From assembly GCF_001887355.1 (NCBI RefSeq), contig NZ_MPIN01000003.1:763956-827955 (forward strand): a stretch of DNA of 64,000 nucleotides, read 5' to 3'. The DNA is from Cystobacter ferrugineus (GTDB lineage: Bacteria; Myxococcota; Myxococcia; Myxococcales; Myxococcaceae). Below the pieces are notes generated by a model. The model saw nothing but the letters and a program-made list of their open reading frames with translations, was not told where the DNA came from and searched no databases. Positions 40,281 through 63,424 of this stretch are shown one piece after another (positions within the stretch are counted from its first letter, which is position 1; each line of letters begins with the position of its first letter). The translations under genes were made by a program, and so were the position numbers.

Positions 40281-40577
40281 TCACGAGTCCTTCCGCCCAG
40301 AGGCGTGTGCCCCGCCGTCCAGCACCTCGGACAGGGTCGTGGCCTGGAGAGCCCGGTCGAACCAGCGGTCGAGCGTGTCCGCGTCCGTGCAGTCGAGGAT
40401 GCGCTGCTGGGCTCCTTCTTCCACATGAATCCCCCGGAGGGCGAGAATCCTCAGGAGGGACTCGGCACGTCCTCGGCTCAGCCCCCGCGCCAGACCCTCT
40501 TCTCTGCCCCGCACCAACCCCTGCTCCAGGCCCTGCTGACGTCCCTGCTCGATGAGTTCCTCGCCATAGCTCCGCAT
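40281..40577 (-). CDS. Putative internal RpnS-like small protein of rpn copy 1
   Basis: An in-frame ATG (codon 257 of the nuclease, MRSYGEELIEQG) has ggagga four bases upstream and would give 98 residues covering the four-residue repeats and the last domain. This matches the RpnS antitoxin layout. Translation is inferred, not shown. Confidence 0.45.
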   Translation of the reverse strand: MRSYGEELIEQGRQQGLEQGLVRGREEGLARGLSRGRAESLLRILALRGIHVEEGAQQRILDCTDADTLDRWFDRALQATTLSEVLDGGAHASGRKDS

Positions 40578-41345
40578 CAGTTCCTCCGCGCGTTGCTCAT
40601 CCAGCACTGAATGTAGCACCTGACCTGTCGCGTTGTGGACGGCCTTGTCCCCGGTCCACAGCAGGTAACGGATGACCACCAGTAAGTGTTCGGCGCCCTC
40701 TGGTGCCGCCTGCACCTGGGCGAAGAGGCCCACCCACTCCGGCAGCTTGCGCGCCAGCTCCCCCGTCCGCCCGTAGCGCAGCACCAACCACGCCAGCCGG
40801 GCCAGCGGAGGACCCGGCCGTGCTTTCAAGGCTTCTTCCCGCTCCGCCGTCAGGTCATCGAGCAGGTACTCGAAGCGCGGCACCCACGCTCGCCACCGCT
40901 GCCGCTCCTCCTCGCTCTCCCCCGGCAGTTCGAACAAGTCCTCCACCCGCCTTGGCGCGCTCCAGGCCCCCTCCGGCCCGTGGTACATCACCAGCGGGAG
41001 GATGACCGGCAACAGCGAGCGCTCCGGGTGCTCCTGGCGCCAGCGCTCCACCTGGCGCACCACGTAGCGCAGCATCCTCAGCGCCATCCACTTGTCCACC
41101 GTGGACTGGTGTTCCAGTAGCACGTACAGCAGCAGCGAGCGGCCCGTGCGCAGGCGGGCGGTGAAGAGCAGGTCGCTCTCCGTTTCTCGCAGCTCCGGGT
41201 CCACCACGCTGCCGGGCTCCAGGCGCAGACTCGACCAGTCCACCACGGAGACGACGTGGGCGGGGAGGACGGCACGCAGCTCGGCTTCGGCCCGCTCGGG
41301 ACGGCCAAAGGTATAGCGGGCGAAGAGGTCATGAGGTCCGGGCAT
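40281..41345 (-). CDS. Rpn family nuclease (PD-(D/E)XK, Transposase_31), copy 1
   Basis: 354 residues from the ATG at 41345 (MPGPHDLFARYTFG). The PD-(D/E)XK core shows Asp58 in TESDLLF and Glu78-x-Gln80 in VLLEHQS, as in Rpn (recombination-promoting nuclease) proteins. The middle is helical. The C-terminus has six four-residue repeats (RQQG LEQG LVRG REEG LARG LSRG), then ALRGIHVEEGAQQ and a final helix domain. Known Rpn proteins are DNA endonucleases that act as toxic antiphage defence proteins and are held back by a small product translated from an internal start. One of three copies within 8 kb. Confidence 0.85.
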   Translation of the reverse strand: MPGPHDLFARYTFGRPERAEAELRAVLPAHVVSVVDWSSLRLEPGSVVDPELRETESDLLFTARLRTGRSLLLYVLLEHQSTVDKWMALRMLRYVVRQVERWRQEHPERSLLPVILPLVMYHGPEGAWSAPRRVEDLFELPGESEEERQRWRAWVPRFEYLLDDLTAEREEALKARPGPPLARLAWLVLRYGRTGELARKLPEWVGLFAQVQAAPEGAEHLLVVIRYLLWTGDKAVHNATGQVLHSVLDEQRAEELMRSYGEELIEQGRQQGLEQGLVRGREEGLARGLSRGRAESLLRILALRGIHVEEGAQQRILDCTDADTLDRWFDRALQATTLSEVLDGGAHASGRKDS

Positions 41346-41482
41346 GGGGCGGCGCCCCAGCACGGAGCGGGCCAGTCGTCCCCCGCGGGGAGATAGCAGG
41401 CCGTGGACGTCCGCTACAGTTCCCTTGGTCCCGTTGGCGAGGCGCCCTTCTTCCGGGAGGGATCTCCCACTGTCCCGCCCGA

Positions 41483-43003: not shown

Positions 43004-43312
43004 TCACGAGTCCTTCCGCCCAGAGGCGTGGGCCCCGCCGTCCAGCACCTCGGACAGGGTCGTGGCCTGGAGGGCCCGGTCGAACCAGCGGTCGAGCGTG
43101 TCCGCGTCCGTGCAGTCGAGGATGAGCTGCCGGGCGCCTTCCTCCACGTGAATCCCCCGGAGGGCGAGAATCTGCAGGAGGGACTCGGCACGTCCCCGTG
43201 CCAGACCCTCTTGCCTGCCTCGCTCCAACCCCTTCTCCAGCCCCTGAGCCAGGCCCTGAGCCAAGCCCTGCTGACGTCCCTGCTCGATGAGTTCCTCGCC
43301 ATAGCTCCGCAT
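43004..43312 (-). CDS. Putative internal RpnS-like small protein of rpn copy 2
   Basis: In-frame ATG at codon 257, preceded by ggagga with a four-base spacer; 102 residues. It has the longest repeat array of the three copies. Separate translation is inferred from position and ribosome-binding site only. Confidence 0.45.
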   Translation of the reverse strand: MRSYGEELIEQGRQQGLAQGLAQGLEKGLERGRQEGLARGRAESLLQILALRGIHVEEGARQLILDCTDADTLDRWFDRALQATTLSEVLDGGAHASGRKDS

Positions 43313-44080
43313 CAACTCCTCCGCGCGTTGCTCATCCAGGACCGAATGTAGCACCTGCCCCGTGGCGTCGTGGACGGCCTTGTCCCCGGTCCACAGCAGG
43401 TAACGGATGACCACCAGCAGGTGTTCGGCGCCCTCCGGAGCCGCCTGGACCTGGGCGAAGAGGCCCACCCACTCCGGCAGCTTGCTCGCCAGCTCCCCCG
43501 TCCGCCCGTAGCGCAGCACCAACCACGCCAAGCGGACCAACGGAGGACCCGGCCGTGCTTTCAAGGCTTCTTCCCGCTCGACCGTCAAGTCATCGAGCAG
43601 GTACTCGAAGCGCGGCACCCACGCTCGCCACCGCTGCCGCTCCTCCTCGCTCTCCCCCGGCAGTTCGAACAAGTCCTCCACCCGCCGTGGCGCGCTCCAG
43701 GCCCCCTCCGGCCCGTGGTACATCACCAGCGGGAGGATGACCGGCAACAGGGTGCGCTCCGGATGCTCCTGGCGCCAGCGCTCCACCTGGCGCACCACGT
43801 AGCGCAGCATGCGCAGCGCCATCCACCGGTCCACCGTGGACTGGTGCTCCAGCAGCACGTACAGCAGCAGCGGGCGGCCCGTGCGCAGGCGGGCGGTGAA
43901 GAGCAAGTCGCTCTCCGTTTCTCGCAGCTCCGGGTCCACCACGCTGCCGGGCTCCAGGCGCAGACTCGACCAGTCCACTGTGGAGACGACGTGGGCGGGC
44001 AGGACGGCACGCAGCTCGGCCTCCGCCCGCTCGGGACGGCCAAAGGTATAGCGGGCGAAGAGGTCATGAGGTCCGGGCAT
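43004..44080 (-). CDS. Rpn family nuclease, copy 2
   Basis: 358 residues from the ATG at 44080. The frame remains open upstream, but homology to copies 1 and 3 begins at MPGPHDLFARYTFG. It has the same PD-(D/E)XK residues as copy 1 (Asp58, Glu78, Gln80) and near-identical sequence through residue 250. The C-terminal repeat array is longer and differs in sequence: RQQG LAQG LAQG LEKG LERG RQEG LARG (seven units). A change in unit number and composition at a conserved place is what is described for Rpn antitoxin specificity. Confidence 0.85.
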   Translation of the reverse strand: MPGPHDLFARYTFGRPERAEAELRAVLPAHVVSTVDWSSLRLEPGSVVDPELRETESDLLFTARLRTGRPLLLYVLLEHQSTVDRWMALRMLRYVVRQVERWRQEHPERTLLPVILPLVMYHGPEGAWSAPRRVEDLFELPGESEEERQRWRAWVPRFEYLLDDLTVEREEALKARPGPPLVRLAWLVLRYGRTGELASKLPEWVGLFAQVQAAPEGAEHLLVVIRYLLWTGDKAVHDATGQVLHSVLDEQRAEELMRSYGEELIEQGRQQGLAQGLAQGLEKGLERGRQEGLARGRAESLLQILALRGIHVEEGARQLILDCTDADTLDRWFDRALQATTLSEVLDGGAHASGRKDS

Positions 44081-44219
44081 GGCGCACGGCGCCTGAGCAC
44101 GGAGTGGGCCAGTCGCACCCCACGGGGAGCCAGCAGGCCGTGGACGTCCGCTTGCGCTCCCTTGGTCCCGGTGGCGAGACGCCCTTGTTCCGGGAGGGAT
44201 CTCCCACTGTCCCGCCCGA

Positions 44220-44252
44220 GTCAGACAAACCGTCTCATACAAATCGTCTGAC
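44220..44252. promoter_or_regulatory. Palindrome upstream of rpn copy 2
   Basis: gtcagacaa and tcgtctgac around a 15-bp spacer, with one mismatch, about 140 bp before the rpn start. Same position as before copies 1 and 3. Confidence 0.4.
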
Positions 44253-44320
44253 ACCTTCGCCGACCCAGTCAGGTCCAAGTCCTTGGCCACCCAAGGCCGG
44301 GGCTCACGTGCCTGCCGCAG

Positions 44321-44638: not shown

Positions 44639-45247
44639 TCAGGGAGTGGGTTCACCGATGAGCCTCACAAGGAAACCGGTGAATTGATAAGTCCCCAGAT
44701 GGCGTTTGTATCCCCCGTCGCTCATGGCGAAGGATTGAACGTAGTCTCCCTTGTTCAGCACCAGCGCAACCGTGCGGGTCGCCGCCACTCGGCCGGACGT
44801 ACTGGTCGCGCCCGCCCAGGCACAACCCTTGTCGACTCCATTCTGGGTGAGGCATGAATAGACATCGTCGTTCGTGCCCTCGTAATAATAGGGGTCCTTC
44901 ACAAGCGAGACCGTGAAGGAGTAGAGCCCCGTGCATGGGGCGATGAACGTTCCTCCCCCGGGCGCCCAGGCACCGCCCTCATTGGTATAAGTCTTGGAGT
45001 AACCCAGAAGTGTGGCGCCACCTTGTGATACATGAGCCCCACCCTCGACCGAGACGGCCACGAACCCGTTGTTGGGACAGGAGGGGCTGCTGAGTGCTTT
45101 GGAAACAGTGGGATCCATGCTTCTGTACTGGGCAACCTCCAAACGCGGCGTCTCCTCACGAGACGGCTCCTCCGCGCGAACGACACTTCCCTGTGCTAAA
45201 ACAGAAACGAAGGCAATCACCAGGACTGTCTTTTCCTCATGAGCCAT
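44639..45247 (-). CDS. Secreted C1q-like domain protein
   Basis: 202 residues from the ATG at 45247. Signal peptide with hydrophobic TVLVIAFVSVLAQGSVV and cleavage near VRAEE. The C-terminal 130 residues show a C1q/TNF-like jelly-roll pattern: YTNEGGAWAPGGGTFIAPCT then GLYSFTVSLV, ALVLNKGDYVQSF near the end, and YQFTGFLVRL as the last strand. Such domains form trimers and mediate binding. Free bacterial C1q proteins are usually secreted and of unknown role. Two to four Cys residues could form disulfides. Confidence 0.75.
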   Translation of the reverse strand: MAHEEKTVLVIAFVSVLAQGSVVRAEEPSREETPRLEVAQYRSMDPTVSKALSSPSCPNNGFVAVSVEGGAHVSQGGATLLGYSKTYTNEGGAWAPGGGTFIAPCTGLYSFTVSLVKDPYYYEGTNDDVYSCLTQNGVDKGCAWAGATSTSGRVAATRTVALVLNKGDYVQSFAMSDGGYKRHLGTYQFTGFLVRLIGEPTP

Positions 45248-45410
45248 ATTGAGCCCCCCATGCCAAGAATTCAGTTCCCAGTGTGTGGGCGGACGGAGTG
45301 GCGCGTCAACGAGCCATCCGCTCATTGTGGCGTTGGGTTGAGTTCAACGGACAGTTACTCCTGATGGAACAGGACCAGATAACACCCAACGGACCCGGCT
45401 CTTGTCCGGG

Positions 45411-45777: not shown

Positions 45778-46545
45778 TCACTGCCCAAGCGACGAGGGCG
45801 GCGGCTTCGCGCTGAACGAGGGCACGTAGCACTTGCCCTGGTACTCGTGGAGCGAGTCCGGGCATGGCGCCTTGAGCTCATGAGGCATCCAGCACCCGCC
45901 CACCAGCTCGACCTCGGAGTAGCGCGCGCAGGGCGGACGCTTCTGTCCCTTGTAGGGCTCTTTTGGCAGAGGCCGGGCGAGCACGAAGGGCTCCTCGGGG
46001 GTGGTGTCCGCGAGTACCCTATCGATGAAAGGCGTTGGCACCTCGGCCTCCGTGGGCGCCTCGTCGCTCATGGGCGCTGGCGGGGTGCTCGGGGGTTGGG
46101 ACACCGAGGCCACCCACGCCAGGAGCAGGGCGCACACCGTGGCGGCCACACCCCGCCCCAGGCTCCACTGGAGGCGGGGCTCGTGGGGGTCGGCGACGGC
46201 GCGGGCCATGCGCCGCACTTCCTCGAGCACCCCCTCCAACGTGAGCAGCAGCGACTCCGCCGACTGCCTGTCCAGGGCCCTGGCCCAGTCGGTGCGCTCC
46301 ACTTCCATGGCGGAGTAGCCCCGTGCGGCCCAGGAGCCGAAGAGTACCCGCCAGTCCTTCCCCGCTGCCGCGACCTCCTCGGAGGAGTGCTTGCGCACCA
46401 GGGCAGTGGCCCCGCTCGTCTCGTGCGTGGCCAGGTAGAGCTCCACCTGACTGTCATGGGACTGCTGCACCTGCTCCTGAATCACGTACGGCCCCAACCG
46501 CTCCGGTTCCTCACGGCTCGCCTGGGACTTCTCTTCCTCGTCCAT
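45778..46545 (-). CDS. Degenerate kinase-like membrane protein
   Basis: 255 residues. The N-terminus LGPYVIQEQVQQSHDSQVEL resembles a decayed kinase N-lobe without a proper Gly loop, and ALVRKHS could be the remnant of the ATP-Lys strand; no catalytic loop exists. A membrane helix is near 130-150 (GVAATVCALLLAWVASV). The C-terminal segment RPPCARYSEVELVGGCWMP and SLHEYQGKCYVPSFS matches the Cys-rich tail found on many myxobacterial Ser/Thr kinases and kinase-linked proteins. It is probably a pseudokinase anchor with a periplasmic tail. The function is unknown. Confidence 0.65.
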   Translation of the reverse strand: MDEEEKSQASREEPERLGPYVIQEQVQQSHDSQVELYLATHETSGATALVRKHSSEEVAAAGKDWRVLFGSWAARGYSAMEVERTDWARALDRQSAESLLLTLEGVLEEVRRMARAVADPHEPRLQWSLGRGVAATVCALLLAWVASVSQPPSTPPAPMSDEAPTEAEVPTPFIDRVLADTTPEEPFVLARPLPKEPYKGQKRPPCARYSEVELVGGCWMPHELKAPCPDSLHEYQGKCYVPSFSAKPPPSSLGQ

Positions 46546-46639: not shown

Positions 46640-46677
46640 GTGGGGGCCTACCCACACGAGTTCGATTCCCGCCACCA
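46640..46677 (+). other. tRNA-like 3' half (possible recombination scar)
   Basis: A variable-arm-like hairpin (gtggg...cccac) is followed by gagttcgattcccgccacca. The T-loop TTCGATT is perfect, but its left stem (acgag) does not pair with the right stem (cccgc), so it looks like a hybrid of two tRNA-like ends. It borders rpn copy 3 directly. Confidence 0.35.
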
Positions 46678-46705
46678 CGTCAGAGGCACGCGAGCGGAGG
46701 CCGGG

Positions 46706-46990
46706 TCACGAGTCCTTCCGCCGAGAGGCGTGGGCCCCGCCGTCCAGCACCTCGGAGAGGGTCGTGGCCTGGAGGGCCCGGTCGAACCAGCCGTCGAGCG
46801 TGTCCACGTCCGTGCAGTCGAGGATGCGCTGCCGGGCGCCTTCCTCCACGTGAATCCCCCGGAGGGCGAGAATCCTCAGGAGGGACTCGGCACGTCCCCG
46901 TGCCAGACCCTCTTCCCTGCCTCGCACCAACCCCTGCTCCAGCCCCTGCTGACGTCCCTGCTCGATGAGTTCCTCGCCATAGCTCCGCAT
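46706..46990 (-). CDS. Intact internal RpnS-like ORF within the broken rpn copy 3
   Basis: In-frame ATG (MRSYGEELIEQG) with ggagga four bases upstream; 94 residues, five four-residue repeats. The frameshift lies over 400 bp upstream, so this ORF could still be translated as an orphan antitoxin-like protein. Expression is not shown. Confidence 0.45.
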   Translation of the reverse strand: MRSYGEELIEQGRQQGLEQGLVRGREEGLARGRAESLLRILALRGIHVEEGARQRILDCTDVDTLDGWFDRALQATTLSEVLDGGAHASRRKDS

Positions 46991-47757
46991 CAGTTCCTCC
47001 GCGCGTTGCTCATCCAGCACTGAATGTAGCACCTGACCTGTCGCGTTGTGGACGGCCTTGTCCCCGGTCCACAACAGGTAACGGATGACCACCAGTAAGT
47101 GTTCGGCGCCCTCTGGTGCCGCCTGGACCTGGGCGAAGAGGCCCACCCACTCCGGCAGCTTGCTCGCCAGCTCCCCCGTCCGCCCGTAGCGCAGCACCAA
47201 CCACGCCAGCCGGACCAGCGGAGGACCCGGTCGTGCTTTCAACGCCTCTTCCCGCTCCGCCGTCAGGTCATCGAGCAGGTACTCGAAGCGCGGCACCCAC
47301 GCTCGCCACCGCTTCCGCTCCTCCTCGCTGTCCCCCGGCAGCTCGAACAAGTCTTCCACCCGCCGTGGCGCGCTCCAGGCCCCCTCCGGCCCGTGATACA
47401 TCACCAGCGGGAGGATGCCGGCAACAGCGAGCGCTCCGGGTGCTCCTGACGCCAGCGCTCCACCTGGCGCACCACGTAGCGCAGCATCCTCAGGGCCATC
47501 CACCGGTCCACCGTGGACTGGTGCTCCAGCAGCACGTACAGCAGCAGCGAGCGGCCCGTGCGCAGGCGGGCGGTGAAGAGCAAGTCGCTCTCCGTCTCGC
47601 GCAGTTCCGGGTCCACCACGCTGCCGGGATCCAGGCGCAGACTCGACCAGTCCACCGCGGAGACGACCTGGGCGGGCAGGACGGCACGCAGCTCGGCCTC
47701 GGCCCGCTCGGGAGGGCCGAAAGTATAGCGGGCGAAGAGATCATGAGGACCGGGCAT
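46706..47757 (-). pseudogene. Rpn family nuclease, copy 3, frameshifted
   Basis: The N-terminal frame starts at the ATG at 47757 and reads normally through HPERSLLP, then ends in ASSRW and stop. The remaining frame resumes at LPLVMYHGPEGAW. Compared with copy 1 (gatgaccgg), copy 3 has gatgccgg at 47413-47420, so one A has been lost. All catalytic residues lie before the shift, but the folded nuclease should not be made. The C-terminal part is undamaged and carries five repeats (RQQG LEQG LVRG REEG LARG). Confidence 0.85.
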
Positions 47758-47895: not shown

Positions 47896-47928
47896 GTCAG
47901 ACGAACCGTCTCGTACAAATCGTCTGAC
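47896..47928. promoter_or_regulatory. Palindrome upstream of rpn copy 3
   Basis: gtcagacga and tcgtctgac are perfect 9-bp arms around a 15-bp spacer, about 140 bp before the start codon. This is the best-preserved version of the three. Confidence 0.45.
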
Positions 47929-47975
47929 ACCTTCTCTGGGAGAAAGGGATGCTGGGCTTGGCCGGGAGGAAGGGG

Positions 47976-58027: not shown

Positions 58028-58103
58028 GCATCCGTCGTTCCCCCACCCCCAACAACAACAACCCCCACCGCTCCGTCTCAGCGGAGCCCAGAGGAGAGCC
58101 ACC

Positions 58104-59321
58104 ATGGATCTGTTGACCCGCTTCGACTTCCTCAACCCCGAGGTGATGCGCAACCCCTACCCGTACTTCGCGGAGATGCGCGAGAAGGCGCCCCTTCACT
58201 ACGACGCGAAGCTCCAGGCCCACGTCCTCACCCGCTACGAGGACGTGTCGTACGTCACGAAGAACCCCGCCCTGTTCTCCTCGGTGGATGTCCGCATCGC
58301 CGGCAAGCACCAGAAGGAGCGCAGCCAGGATACCGGACTGGAGGGCGTGGACAGCCTGCTCACCACGGATCCGCCCGTGCACTCGCGCCTGCGCGGCAAG
58401 GTCAACCGCTCCTTCACTCCCAAGCAGATCTCCGCGATGGAGCCACGCGTGCGCGAGCTGTCGCGCGAGCTCGTCGCGGAGATGACGGCCAGCAACGAGT
58501 TCGAGTTCATGAGCGGGCTGGCCTCGCCCCTGCCCGTCACCATCATCGCGGAGATGCTCGGCGTGGACACCTCGCGCCGCCGCGACTTCAAGCGCTGGAG
58601 CGACGCGATCGCCAACTCCGGCAACGCCAGCCTCACCGGCAAGACGCCCGAGGACGTGGTGCGCAACGCCAAGGAGATGCTCGCGTACATGACGGAGGTG
58701 GCCGAGGCGCGCCGCCGCGAGCCCCGGGGTGACCTCATCTCCCTGCTCGTCCAGGAGGTCGAGGGCCAGGAGGCCCTGACTCCCCCGGAGGTCAACTCCT
58801 TCGCCATCCTGCTGCTGCTGGCCGGCAACGAGACCACCACCAACCTGCTGGGCAACGCCCTCACCGCGCTCATCCGCAATCCGGAGGCGTACGAGTGGCT
58901 GCGGAACGACCCCACGCAGGCCGCCTGCGCCGCCGTGTGCGAGGAGACGCTGCGCTATGACTCGCCCGTGATCACCGTCGTGCGCCGCACCACCCAGGAG
59001 GTGGAGCTGAGCGGCGGCAAGGTGCCCGCGAACACCACGCTGTTCGCCTCGGTGTCGGCCGCCAACCACGATCCGCGCAAGTTCCCCAACCCGGAGCGCT
59101 TCGATCCGCGGCGGGACACCACCGGCCTGATGTCCTTCGGCCACGGCATCCACTTCTGCCTCGGCGCTCCGCTCGCCCGCCTGGAGGCCCCCGTGGCCCT
59201 GCAGGAGTTGATGGCGCGTGCCCCCCGTCTGGGCTTCTCGCCGCGCCAGCCCGAGCACATCGACTACGGCGCCTCGTTCGCCCTGCGCGGCCCCCGCGTG
59301 CTCTGGCTCCAGAAGAACTGA
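58104..59321 (+). CDS. Cytochrome P450, tandem copy 1
   Basis: 405 residues, soluble class I bacterial P450. I helix LLLAGNETTTNLLGNALT with Thr244; ExxR in EETLRYDSPV (Glu281, Arg284); heme loop SFGHGIHFCLGAPLARLEAP with Cys352. The N-terminus MDLLTRFDFLNPEVMRNPYP then YFAEMREKAP lacks a membrane anchor. SD gaggagag precedes the ATG. It needs an external ferredoxin and reductase, neither of which is nearby. It opens the row of four paralogues and lies directly behind the TetR gene. Confidence 0.93.
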   Translation: MDLLTRFDFLNPEVMRNPYPYFAEMREKAPLHYDAKLQAHVLTRYEDVSYVTKNPALFSSVDVRIAGKHQKERSQDTGLEGVDSLLTTDPPVHSRLRGKVNRSFTPKQISAMEPRVRELSRELVAEMTASNEFEFMSGLASPLPVTIIAEMLGVDTSRRRDFKRWSDAIANSGNASLTGKTPEDVVRNAKEMLAYMTEVAEARRREPRGDLISLLVQEVEGQEALTPPEVNSFAILLLLAGNETTTNLLGNALTALIRNPEAYEWLRNDPTQAACAAVCEETLRYDSPVITVVRRTTQEVELSGGKVPANTTLFASVSAANHDPRKFPNPERFDPRRDTTGLMSFGHGIHFCLGAPLARLEAPVALQELMARAPRLGFSPRQPEHIDYGASFALRGPRVLWLQKN

Positions 59322-59333
59322 GCGCGTCCCCCC

Positions 59334-59399
59334 AAGCCAGGGAGCGCGGGGACGAAGACGGGTGGGCGTGCTCCTCCGCGCCCGCTCGCTCCCTGGCTT
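59334..59399. repeat. Hairpin between P450 copies 1 and 2
   Basis: aagccagggagcg (59334-59346) and cgctccctggctt (59387-59399) are perfect 13-bp arms around a 40-bp loop. No T-run follows. It may limit read-through or stabilise mRNA. The spacers between copies 2 and 3 keep the downstream half (ccatgaacttccgc...) but not this hairpin. Confidence 0.5.
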
Positions 59400-59463
59400 G
59401 CCCGCTGTCTCCATGAACTTCCGCCGTCCCCCCCGTCGTTTTCCTCTCCGAGGAGAGCCACTC

Positions 59464-60684
59464 ATGGACCTGCTGAGCCGCTTCGACTTCTTCAACCCCG
59501 AGGTGATGCGCAACCCCTATCCGTACTTCGCGGAGATGCGCGAGAAGGCGCCCATCTACTACGACGCGAAGCTGCAGGCCCACGTGCTCAGCCGCTACGA
59601 GGACGTGTCGTTCGTGCTCAAGAATCACGCCCTGTTCTCCTCCACGAAGATCCGCGTCGCCGGCAAGCTCCAGGAGGAGCGCGCCTCCGTGCAGGAGTTG
59701 GGCTCGGTGTCCAACCTGGTCACCACGGATCCGCCCATGCATACGCGCATGCGGGGCCTCGTCAGCCGGGCCTTCACTCCCAAGCAGATCTCCGCGATGG
59801 AGCCGCGCGTGCGCGAGCTGTCCCGGGCGCTCATCGCGGAGATGGCGTCCCGGTCCGAGTTCGACTTCATGGAGGGCCTGGCCTCGCCCCTGCCCGTCAC
59901 CATCATCTCGGAGATGCTGGGCGTGGACACCTCCCGCCGCGGCGATTTCAAGCGCTGGAGCGACACCCTCATCCAATCCAGCAGCGCCACCCTCCAGTCG
60001 GGCAAGGCGTCCGAGCAGGTCGAGCGCAGCGCCCGGGAGATGCTCACGTACATGCAGGAGGTGGCCGAGGCTCGCCGTCGCGAGCCCCGGGGCGATCTCA
60101 TCTCGCTGCTCGTCCAGGAGACCGATGGCGTGGCGGCCCTGACGCCCCCGGAGGTCAACTCCTTCACCGTCCTGTTGCTCATCGCGGGCAACGAGACCAC
60201 CACCAACCTGCTGGGCAATACCCTCAACGCCCTCATCCGCCACCCGGAGGCGTACGAGTGGTTGCGGCGTGAGCCCTCCGCCGCCTCCTGCTCGGCCGTG
60301 TGCGAGGAGACGCTGCGCTACGACTCGCCCGTCATCGGGCTCTTCCGCCGCACCACGCAGGAGGTGGAGGTGAGCGGGGGCAAGCTGCCCGCGGACAGCT
60401 CGGTGCTGGTGTTGCTGGCCTCCGCCAACCATGATCCGCGCAAGTTCCCCGATCCGGAGCGGTTCGACCCGCGGAGGGACACCAATGGCCTGATGTCCTT
60501 CGGCCATGGCATCCACTTCTGCCTCGGCGCACCGCTCACCCGCCTGGAGGCCCCCGTGGCCCTGCAGGAGTTGATGGAGCGCGCACCCCGCCTGGGCTTC
60601 GCCCCGCGTCAGCCCGAGGCCATCGACTACGGTGGCTCGTTCTTCCTGCGTGGACCCCGCTCGCTCTGGCTCCAGAAGAACTGA
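59464..60684 (+). CDS. Cytochrome P450, tandem copy 2
   Basis: 406 residues from the ATG at 59464 behind gaggagagcc. Same motifs as copy 1: LLIAGNETTTNLLGNTL, EETLRYDSPV, SFGHGIHFCLGAPLTRLEAP. It differs mainly in the BC-loop region after VAGKLQEERASVQELGSVSN and in the F/G region (LIQSSSATLQSGKASEQVER), the parts that shape the substrate pocket. This suggests that the duplicated genes have moved to different substrates. Confidence 0.93.
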   Translation: MDLLSRFDFFNPEVMRNPYPYFAEMREKAPIYYDAKLQAHVLSRYEDVSFVLKNHALFSSTKIRVAGKLQEERASVQELGSVSNLVTTDPPMHTRMRGLVSRAFTPKQISAMEPRVRELSRALIAEMASRSEFDFMEGLASPLPVTIISEMLGVDTSRRGDFKRWSDTLIQSSSATLQSGKASEQVERSAREMLTYMQEVAEARRREPRGDLISLLVQETDGVAALTPPEVNSFTVLLLIAGNETTTNLLGNTLNALIRHPEAYEWLRREPSAASCSAVCEETLRYDSPVIGLFRRTTQEVEVSGGKLPADSSVLVLLASANHDPRKFPDPERFDPRRDTNGLMSFGHGIHFCLGAPLTRLEAPVALQELMERAPRLGFAPRQPEAIDYGGSFFLRGPRSLWLQKN

Positions 60685-60762
60685 GCGCGACCCGGCTTGC
60701 CCCGCTGTCCCCATGAACTTCCGCTGTCCCCTCCGCCTTTTCCTCACCGAGGAGTGCCGCAC

Positions 60763-61980
60763 ATGGATCTGCTGAGCCGCTTCGACTTCTTCAACCCCGA
60801 GGTGATGCGCAATCCCTACCCCTACTTCGCGCAGATGCGCGAGAAGGCGCCCCTCTTCTACGACGCCAAGCTCCAGGCCCCCCTCGTCAGCCGCTACGAG
60901 GACGTGTCGTACATCTTGAAGAACCCCGCCCTGTTCTCCTCCGCGCAGATCCGCATCGCCGGCAAGCTCCCGACGGAGCGCAGCCAGGAGGCCGGGCTCG
61001 GGGCGGTGGACAACCTGCTCACCATGGACCCGCCCGTGCACACGCGCCTGCGCGGCCGGGTCAACCGCGCCTTCACCCCCAAGCAGATCAACGCCCTGGA
61101 GCCGCGCGTGCGCGAGCTGTCCCGGGAGTGCATCACGGAGATGACGGCCAGCAACGAGTTCGAGTTCATGAGTGGGCTGGCCTCGCCCCTGCCCGTCACC
61201 ATCATCGCGGAGATGCTCGGCGTGGATACCTCGCGCCGCCGCGACTTCAAGCGCTGGAGCGACGCGGTCGTCAACTCCAGCAACGCCTCCTTCACCGGCA
61301 AGACGCCCGAGGAGGCGGTGCGCAGCGCCAAGGAGATGCTCGCCTATATGACGGAGGTGGCCGAGGCGCGCCGCCGCGAGCCCCGGGACGATCTCATCTC
61401 CCTGCTCGTCCAGGACAGCGAGGGTCAGGAGGCCCTGACGCCCGAGGAGGTCAACTCCTTCGCCGTCCTGCTGCTGCTGGCGGGCAACGAGACCACCACC
61501 AACCTGCTGGGCAATGCCCTCACCACGCTCATCCGCCACCCGGAGGCGTACGAGTGGCTACGGCGCGATCCCACCCCCGCGACCTGTGCCGCCGTGATCG
61601 AGGAGACGCTGCGCTACGACTCGCCCGTGTTGACACTCAGCCGCCGCACCACCCAGGAGGTGGAGCTGAGCGGCGGCAAGGTGCCCGCGGAGACCACCCT
61701 CATGGTGCTGGTGTCGTCCGCCAACCATGACCCGCGCAAGTTCTCCGACCCGGAGCGCTTCGATCCGCGGCGCGACACCACCGGCCTGCTGTCCTTCGGG
61801 CACGGCATCCACTTCTGCATCGGTGCCCCGCTCGCCCGCCTGGAGGCCCCCGTGGCCCTGCAGGAGCTCGTGGCACGCACGCCCCGTCTGGGCTTTTCGC
61901 CCCGCCAGCCCGAGAATATCGACTACGGGTCCTCGTTCTTCCTGCGCGGACCCCGCTCGCTCTGGCTCCAGAAGAACTGA
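60763..61980 (+). CDS. Cytochrome P450, tandem copy 3
   Basis: 405 residues from the ATG at 60763 behind gaggag. Closest to copy 1 by eye (shared NLLTMDPPVHTRLRGRVNRA-type segment and VNSSNASFTGKTPEEAVRSA region). Motifs LLLAGNETTTNLLGNALT, EETLRYDSPVLTLSRRTTQE and SFGHGIHFCIGAPLARLEAP are intact. The spacer to copy 2 repeats part of the spacer between copies 1 and 2, so the duplicated unit included its leader. Confidence 0.93.
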   Translation: MDLLSRFDFFNPEVMRNPYPYFAQMREKAPLFYDAKLQAPLVSRYEDVSYILKNPALFSSAQIRIAGKLPTERSQEAGLGAVDNLLTMDPPVHTRLRGRVNRAFTPKQINALEPRVRELSRECITEMTASNEFEFMSGLASPLPVTIIAEMLGVDTSRRRDFKRWSDAVVNSSNASFTGKTPEEAVRSAKEMLAYMTEVAEARRREPRDDLISLLVQDSEGQEALTPEEVNSFAVLLLLAGNETTTNLLGNALTTLIRHPEAYEWLRRDPTPATCAAVIEETLRYDSPVLTLSRRTTQEVELSGGKVPAETTLMVLVSSANHDPRKFSDPERFDPRRDTTGLLSFGHGIHFCIGAPLARLEAPVALQELVARTPRLGFSPRQPENIDYGSSFFLRGPRSLWLQKN

Positions 61981-62030
61981 GCCAGCGCGGGCCGTCGTGC
62001 CCTTCGCTGTCTCTCTTCCCGGAGCGTCCC

Positions 62031-63239
62031 ATGAGTCTGCTCGATGGCTTCGACTTCCTCGATCCGAAGTTCAGGCAACACCCCTACCCCTACTTCGCCG
62101 AGATGCGCGAGCAGGCTCCGCTGTTCTGGAGCGAGCGCCTCCAGTCCTGGCTCCTCAGCCGCCATGAGGACGTGGCGTTCGCCCTGAAGAACGCCGCCCT
62201 GTTCTCCTCCGCCAACGTCCAGATCGCGGGCCGCAAGCGGGGCTTCTTCCAGGTCGAGTCGGTGGCCGAGCTGCTCACCTCGGACCCTCCCGTCCATACG
62301 CGGATGCGCGGCCTGGTCAGCCGGGCCTTCACCCCCAAGCAGATCTCCGCGATGGAGCCGCGCGTGCGCGAGCTGTCCCGGGCGCTCATCGCGGAGATGA
62401 CGGCCAGCCCCGAGTTCGACTTCATGGACGGGCTGGCCTCGCCCCTGCCCGTCACCATCATCGCGGAGATGCTCGGCATCGACACCATCCGCCGCCGCGA
62501 CTTCAAGCGCTGGAGCGACACGATCATCGCCGGCCTGAGCGCGAGCCTGCGCACGGGCCAGGAGCCGGAGGAGGTCGGCCGCTGCCGCGAGGAGATGCTC
62601 GCGTACATGACCCAGGTGGCCGAGGCGCGCCGCCACGAGCCCCGGGGTGACCTCATCTCCCTGCTCGTCCAGGAGACGGACGGCGTGCCCGCGCTGACCC
62701 CCCAGGAGGTGAATGCCTTCACCGTGCTGCTGCTCATCGCCGGCAACGAGACCACCACCAACCTGCTGGGCAATGCCCTCACCACGCTCATCCGCCACCC
62801 CGAGGAGTACGAGTGGCTGCGGCGCGATCCCTCCCTCGCCGCCTGCTCGGCCGTGTGCGAGGAGACCCTGCGCTTCGAGTCGCCGGTGATGGGGGTGTCG
62901 CGCCGCACCACCCAGGAGGTGGAGGTGAGCGGCGGGAAGATCCCCGCGAACGTGACGGTGACGCTCCTGCTCGGCTCGGCCAACCATGACCCGCGCAGGT
63001 TCCCCGACCCGGAGCGCTTCGATCCGCGGCGCGACACCACCGGCCTGATGTCCTTCGGCCACGGCATCCACTTCTGCCTCGGCGCACCGCTCACCCGAGT
63101 GGAAGCCCCCGTGGCCCTGCGGGAGCTGATGGCGCAGGCCCCCCGCCTGGGCTTCGCGCCGCGCCAGCCCGAGCAGCTCGACTACGGGCCCTCCTTCGCC
63201 TTGCGGGGGCCCCGCTCGCTCTGGCTCCGCAAGAACTGA
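62031..63239 (+). CDS. Cytochrome P450, tandem copy 4
   Basis: 402 residues; the most divergent of the four at the N-terminus (MSLLDGFDFLDPKFRQHPYP) and in the BC loop (KRGFFQVESVAELLTSDPPV). Catalytic motifs are complete: LLIAGNETTTNLLGNALT, EETLRFESPV, SFGHGIHFCLGAPLTRVEAP. It lies 50 bp behind copy 3 and is probably cotranscribed. No terminator-like hairpin is seen before it; a short cccgccaggcggg stem follows it. Confidence 0.93.
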   Translation: MSLLDGFDFLDPKFRQHPYPYFAEMREQAPLFWSERLQSWLLSRHEDVAFALKNAALFSSANVQIAGRKRGFFQVESVAELLTSDPPVHTRMRGLVSRAFTPKQISAMEPRVRELSRALIAEMTASPEFDFMDGLASPLPVTIIAEMLGIDTIRRRDFKRWSDTIIAGLSASLRTGQEPEEVGRCREEMLAYMTQVAEARRHEPRGDLISLLVQETDGVPALTPQEVNAFTVLLLIAGNETTTNLLGNALTTLIRHPEEYEWLRRDPSLAACSAVCEETLRFESPVMGVSRRTTQEVEVSGGKIPANVTVTLLLGSANHDPRRFPDPERFDPRRDTTGLMSFGHGIHFCLGAPLTRVEAPVALRELMAQAPRLGFAPRQPEQLDYGPSFALRGPRSLWLRKN

Positions 63240-63424
63240 CCCCGTGCCCCCGCCAGGCGGGCATCCGGAGGCCAGGTGACCCGGGTGGTAGCAGGTGAGA
63301 CGTCCCCAGAGGGCATGAAAGTGCCTTTCCGGGGGTTGTAAGTCTTCGTCCGCCGCCTGTACCGGCGACTCGATGCGTCACCTGTCTTCCGGACGCCTTC
63401 CCCTTCCGCTAGAAAGCGCCCCCC

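Follow-up and report, generated by a model that had tools for sequence, protein, structure and literature searches.

A frameshifted rpn gene of Cystobacter ferrugineus with an intact nested antitoxin-like frame: a candidate recent toxin-null allele

Rpn genes encode two proteins: RpnL, which is a toxic nuclease, and RpnS, a small C-terminal antitoxin made from an internal start, whose specificity is set by variable four-residue units (Zhong et al., PMC10327210). A free RpnS without its own nuclease is also known from standalone rpnS genes, which include DUF4351 proteins and, in E. coli, ypaA (a second rpnE-S) and a second rpnC-S; those of E. coli are second copies beside intact rpn genes. Other systems, too, commonly contain orphan antitoxins, and for those of type II and type IV, surveyed in Klebsiella, anti-addiction, cross-talk, and remnant roles have been proposed (PMC7192599). 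The gene analysed here, copy 3 of an rpn cluster in Cystobacter ferrugineus, resembles both classes in holding an antitoxin without a toxin. It differs from the standalone E. coli genes in that its antitoxin-only state results from breakage or truncation within its own toxin part, and from the type II and type IV orphans, which are separate genes, in that its antitoxin is nested in a dead toxin gene. Given that intragenic and standalone RpnS are already published, what is added here is a natural series at one locus and an excess of antitoxin-only copies in the family. With some reservation, we favour the reading that copy 3, a member of an Rpn gene-within-gene toxin-antitoxin system, has recently become a toxin-null allele and belongs to a recurrent RpnS-only class.

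Three rpn copies, all on the minus strand, lie within the 64-kb stretch of DNA that was analysed (the window). Like the described Rpn systems (PF04754, COG5464; E. coli RpnA), they feature a PF04754 nuclease with a D...ExQ motif and an in-frame internal Shine-Dalgarno (SD) sequence and ATG, leading to a small C-terminal protein that carries variable four-residue units close to its N-terminus. Multiple copies in one genome are a further shared trait, and here they stand in tandem. Copy 3 departs from them in that it no longer encodes a full-length RpnL. In window coordinates, the features are:

40281-41363, minus strand: copy 1, intact rpn; RpnS of 98 aa with six units
43004-44290, minus strand: copy 2, intact rpn; RpnS of 102 aa with seven units
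45778-46545, minus strand: gene 3' of copy 3, without a Pfam match; basis of the synteny in genomes G001 and G002
46706-47757, minus strand: copy 3, frameshifted rpn
47401-47757, minus strand: front piece of copy 3, running from MPGPHD of the nuclease to the stop created by the frameshift; D...ExQ kept (ESDLLF ... LEHQS)
47413-47420, minus strand: where copy 3 has lost one base that is present in copies 1 and 2 and in the intact G001 orthologue
47399-47403, minus strand: TGATG, the premature TGA overlapping an ATG of the original downstream frame, without an adjacent SD
46991-47412, minus strand: rear nuclease part of copy 3, out of frame with the front piece, still open and undecayed
46996-47000, minus strand: internal SD (GGAGG), 5 nt ahead of the internal ATG
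46706-46990, minus strand: internal ORF, intact, putative RpnS-like antitoxin of 94 aa
46898-46957, minus strand: five GxxX four-residue units (GRQQ GLEQ GLVR GREE GLAR) in the first helix

Copies 1 and 2 each carry the whole nuclease in a single open frame and match PF04754 with 152 and 151 bits, respectively (cut-off, 21 bits); on the basis of this domain and frame, both are classed as RpnL nucleases, with cleavage and toxicity predicted. Copy 3 has no such single frame. Its PF04754 match comes in two pieces in different frames (profile positions 2-107 of 203, 96 bits, and 110-199, 36 bits) and, being frameshifted, it is not classed as a working RpnL. Because the match splits at profile positions 107/110, the D...ExQ motif falls in the front piece, whose ORF is open upstream as far as 47979.

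Several other features of the window were recorded. Between copies 2 and 3, a C1q-domain protein is encoded on the minus strand (44639-45325, Pfam); such proteins are, to our knowledge, uncommon in bacteria. Positions 58103-63257 hold four genes in tandem, each about 1.3 kb long, that are 80-91% alike, and positions 1-294 a tandem repeat with 45-nt units. No match to plasmid DNA was found. The rpn 5' leader starts with a dispersed repeat, GGTGTCAGACGAnTnGT (47900-47941, minus strand), which occurs 28 times in the G000 genome and not once in a reversed control. On the 3' side of rpn (46640-46690), the sequence leads into TGGAGGCGGCGGGAATCGAACCCG, as it does at the ends of the dispersed rpn copies L068, L070, L072, and L076. 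This element resembles a tRNA 3' end in reverse complement, and tRNA calling yielded no complete tRNA there. The dispersed copies have similar cassette ends, unlike the variable rpn-region ends described in PMC10327210.

The initial annotation held that copy 3 is one base short of copies 1 and 2 and that its nuclease frame ends past the catalytic motif, and our alignment of the three copies bears out both points. The sequence ccggTcatcctcc in copies 1 and 2 corresponds to ccgg-catcctcc in copy 3 (ccggTcatcc becoming ccggcatcc), which is the sole frame-changing gap in the coding part, and the G001 orthologue also has the base. The shifted frame reads ...SLLPASSRW and stops at TGA 47403-47401. 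Programmed frameshifting was considered and ruled out, since the site has no slippery heptamer and the G001 orthologue, like copies 1 and 2, is read in a single frame. An assembly or sequencing error, with copy 3 intact in the cell, might be suspected, as only a single base is at stake and the assembly is a 42-contig draft in which three near-identical copies occur. Yet the lost base lies outside any homopolymer, mixing with reads from copy 1 or 2 would add the base rather than remove it, and generic assembly noise is unlikely because, across about 8.8 kb of conserved DNA nearby (55.2-64.0 kb), gaps relative to two relatives are intergenic only and no other gap breaks a coding frame. We therefore regard the lesion as probably real and an error as quite improbable.

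Re-initiation at the original-frame ATG that the premature TGA overlaps could yield a 231-aa C-terminal product. It might then be proposed that ribosomes restart at TGATG and that the two pieces reassemble into an active nuclease, for which the open and undecayed rear part could also be invoked. Against this, the restart lacks an SD, the break cuts through the nuclease domain (profile positions 107/110), and the equal constraint on the pieces is also explained by the youth of the lesion, so that a split but active nuclease appears very unlikely indeed.

Downstream of the lesion, the internal ORF and its ribosome-binding site are intact, as had been annotated: GGAGG-AACTG-ATG (47000-46988, minus strand) opens the 94-aa frame. 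We recognised RpnS by four-residue units placed 8-20 residues past the internal Met in numbers that vary between copies, and those of copy 3 begin at residue 12. An AlphaFold2 model of the product (pLDDT, 84.5) has helices at residues 4-43, 50-58, 62-72, and 78-82, the long first helix bearing the repeat units and the shorter ones following; RpnA-S (7TH0) is a three-helix bundle whose first helix is long. Foldseek and VIA-align gave no matching solved structure for the model; that 7TH0 is absent among the structures listed is no argument against this fold. The product had no sequence match in the PDB and no Pfam match at an E value of 0.01, PF14261 (DUF4351) included, and its matches to FliH, invertase, and OmpA were set aside as repeat similarity on GxxxG repeats.

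The mere presence of the SD was rejected as evidence, since bare GGAGG-N4-7-ATG occurs at chance level in the window (14 instances against 11.6 expected); the weight lies on its conservation. Across the family, where the codon ahead of the two Glu codons encodes Ala it is GCG in 23 of 24 cases, and where it encodes Thr it is ACG in all eight (counts from related and therefore non-independent copies), while elsewhere in the same genes GCG makes up 38% of Ala codons and ACG 51% of Thr codons. GGAGG is retained even in members whose second encoded Glu has changed. These patterns show family-wide conservation of the internal SD at the DNA level, beyond codon use.

Orthologues of copy 3 were placed in two genomes of the same genus by synteny with the gene on its 3' side (45778-46545) and by the conserved block from 55.2 kb onward. 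The G001 orthologue (L008, C72:39670) is full length, with the base present and five units. In the G002 orthologue (L029, C1:7525834), a 371-bp deletion in the nuclease part corresponds to window positions 47251-47621, residue 43 is a stop, and the RpnS frame is whole, with 90 aa and four units. At this locus, the toxin has thus been lost in two of three species by different lesions, and RpnS has been kept in all three.

A comparison of silent and changing substitutions before and after the internal ATG had been suggested in the initial annotation. Run against the intact orthologue, it revealed no difference, the counts of silent/changing codons being 14/6 before the lesion, 23/8 from the lesion to the internal ATG, and 5/2 in RpnS. 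The dN/dS ratio within copy 3 was rejected as a test of selection, as it has no power there. Because neither half has decayed and the ratios are alike, the lesion is recent. Copy 3 itself gives no selection signal, and its similar constraint throughout is as expected of a young neutral lesion. This pattern, together with the small number of copy-specific changes, fits a reading of copy 3 as a neutral young pseudogene that lost its function recently and whose RpnS is unmaintained, its intactness reflecting the short time since the lesion.

The family data bear on this neutral reading from both sides. An RpnS profile search of 96 family genomes (counts omit distant genera) gave 114 strong RpnS matches against 90 nuclease matches. 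C-terminal-only copies without a nuclease upstream numbered 30, and N-terminal-only copies 7. After correction, which removed from the latter one copy at a contig end and one with a C part scoring just under the cut, about 29 stood against about 5 (two-sided binomial test against an even split, 4e-5). Most solo copies examined retain GGAGG-ATG and a full RpnS frame, a share that is an upper bound because the RpnS score cut favours intact copies. In pairwise comparison with the nearest full-length copy, dN/dS of RpnS is 0.39 (0.33-0.45) in solo copies and 0.42 (0.38-0.45) in full-length copies. As a control for this comparison, the toxin remnant that precedes the internal ATG in solo copies is weak, for it is scarcely relaxed, and a claim of relaxation was rejected, since p is 0.005 with three poorly aligned copies and 0.22 without them; as the remnant is not clearly relaxed, many of the truncations may be recent. 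In addition, L079:9217-9563 (at G000:C1:1215205) and L083:9153-9475 (at G001:C11:89141) are RpnS-only genes that are syntenic between two species and whose upstream breakpoints differ.

The neutral reading draws support from a few decayed RpnS remnants (L032, L123b, L136, and G001:C64) and from a syntenic RpnS-only pair (L085:9745-10066/L082:9622-9851) that is intact in G000 and decayed in G001. Against it speak the G002 orthologue, which separately lost its toxin and kept RpnS, and the family-wide excess of C-terminal-only over N-terminal-only copies with RpnS still under constraint. This excess could, alternatively, reflect selection against an unguarded toxin and not for a free antitoxin. 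On balance, we hold a neutral pseudogene to be possible yet doubtful, and we retain the recent toxin-null allele as the preferred reading.

Under the toxin-null reading, the one-base loss would halt synthesis of the full-length nuclease beyond the catalytic motif. The nested RpnS gene, which keeps its own SD, start, and frame, would probably still be translated, and its product, once made, might inhibit an Rpn nuclease with a matching array. The array of copy 1 consists of the five units of copy 3 plus one extra unit (GLSR), in agreement with the earlier description of copy 3 as copy 1 minus one unit, and copy 2 has seven. The further suggestion that copy 3 pairs with copy 1 goes against the published behaviour of E. 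coli RpnC, in which the addition of a single unit put an end to neutralisation both ways (PMC10327210), and such action is for this reason unlikely. Nor do the other full-frame Rpn copies of the genome match the five units, as they carry 6, 7, 7, and 3 (one of those with seven, G000:C1:940543, lacks the first 41 nuclease residues). Thus, although the DNA of the RpnS cores is about 96-97% identical and the arrays of copies 1 and 3 differ by one unit, we deem it improbable that, within one cell, the RpnS of copy 3 holds copy 1 or copy 2 in check or titrates it. Family-wide, the array length of solo copies matches that of a resident Rpn at chance level (12 of 24, 12.2 expected). A five-unit RpnS would probably be inactive on copy 1 (six units) or copy 2 (seven), so that, if it is of any use, its target would be an incoming Rpn or its own former partner. 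Of the initial annotation's functional proposal, the anatomy stands, with the toxin lost and the antitoxin-like ORF free, and this loss recurs in the family; the freed antitoxin may or may not act as protection or as a decoy.

With its internal SD conserved, any disabling hit upstream would give an antitoxin-only gene at once: a nested antitoxin could be freed by any lesion in the enclosing toxin gene. It is tempting to speculate, though we advance it tentatively, that toxin stripping is a recurrent, selected route in Myxococcaceae by which nested antitoxins become free-standing immunity genes, and that copy 3 stands at the first step. The orthologous trio, comprising an intact gene, a one-base loss, and a 371-bp deletion, offers a natural series for following the fate of a freed antitoxin and its repeat-number specificity.
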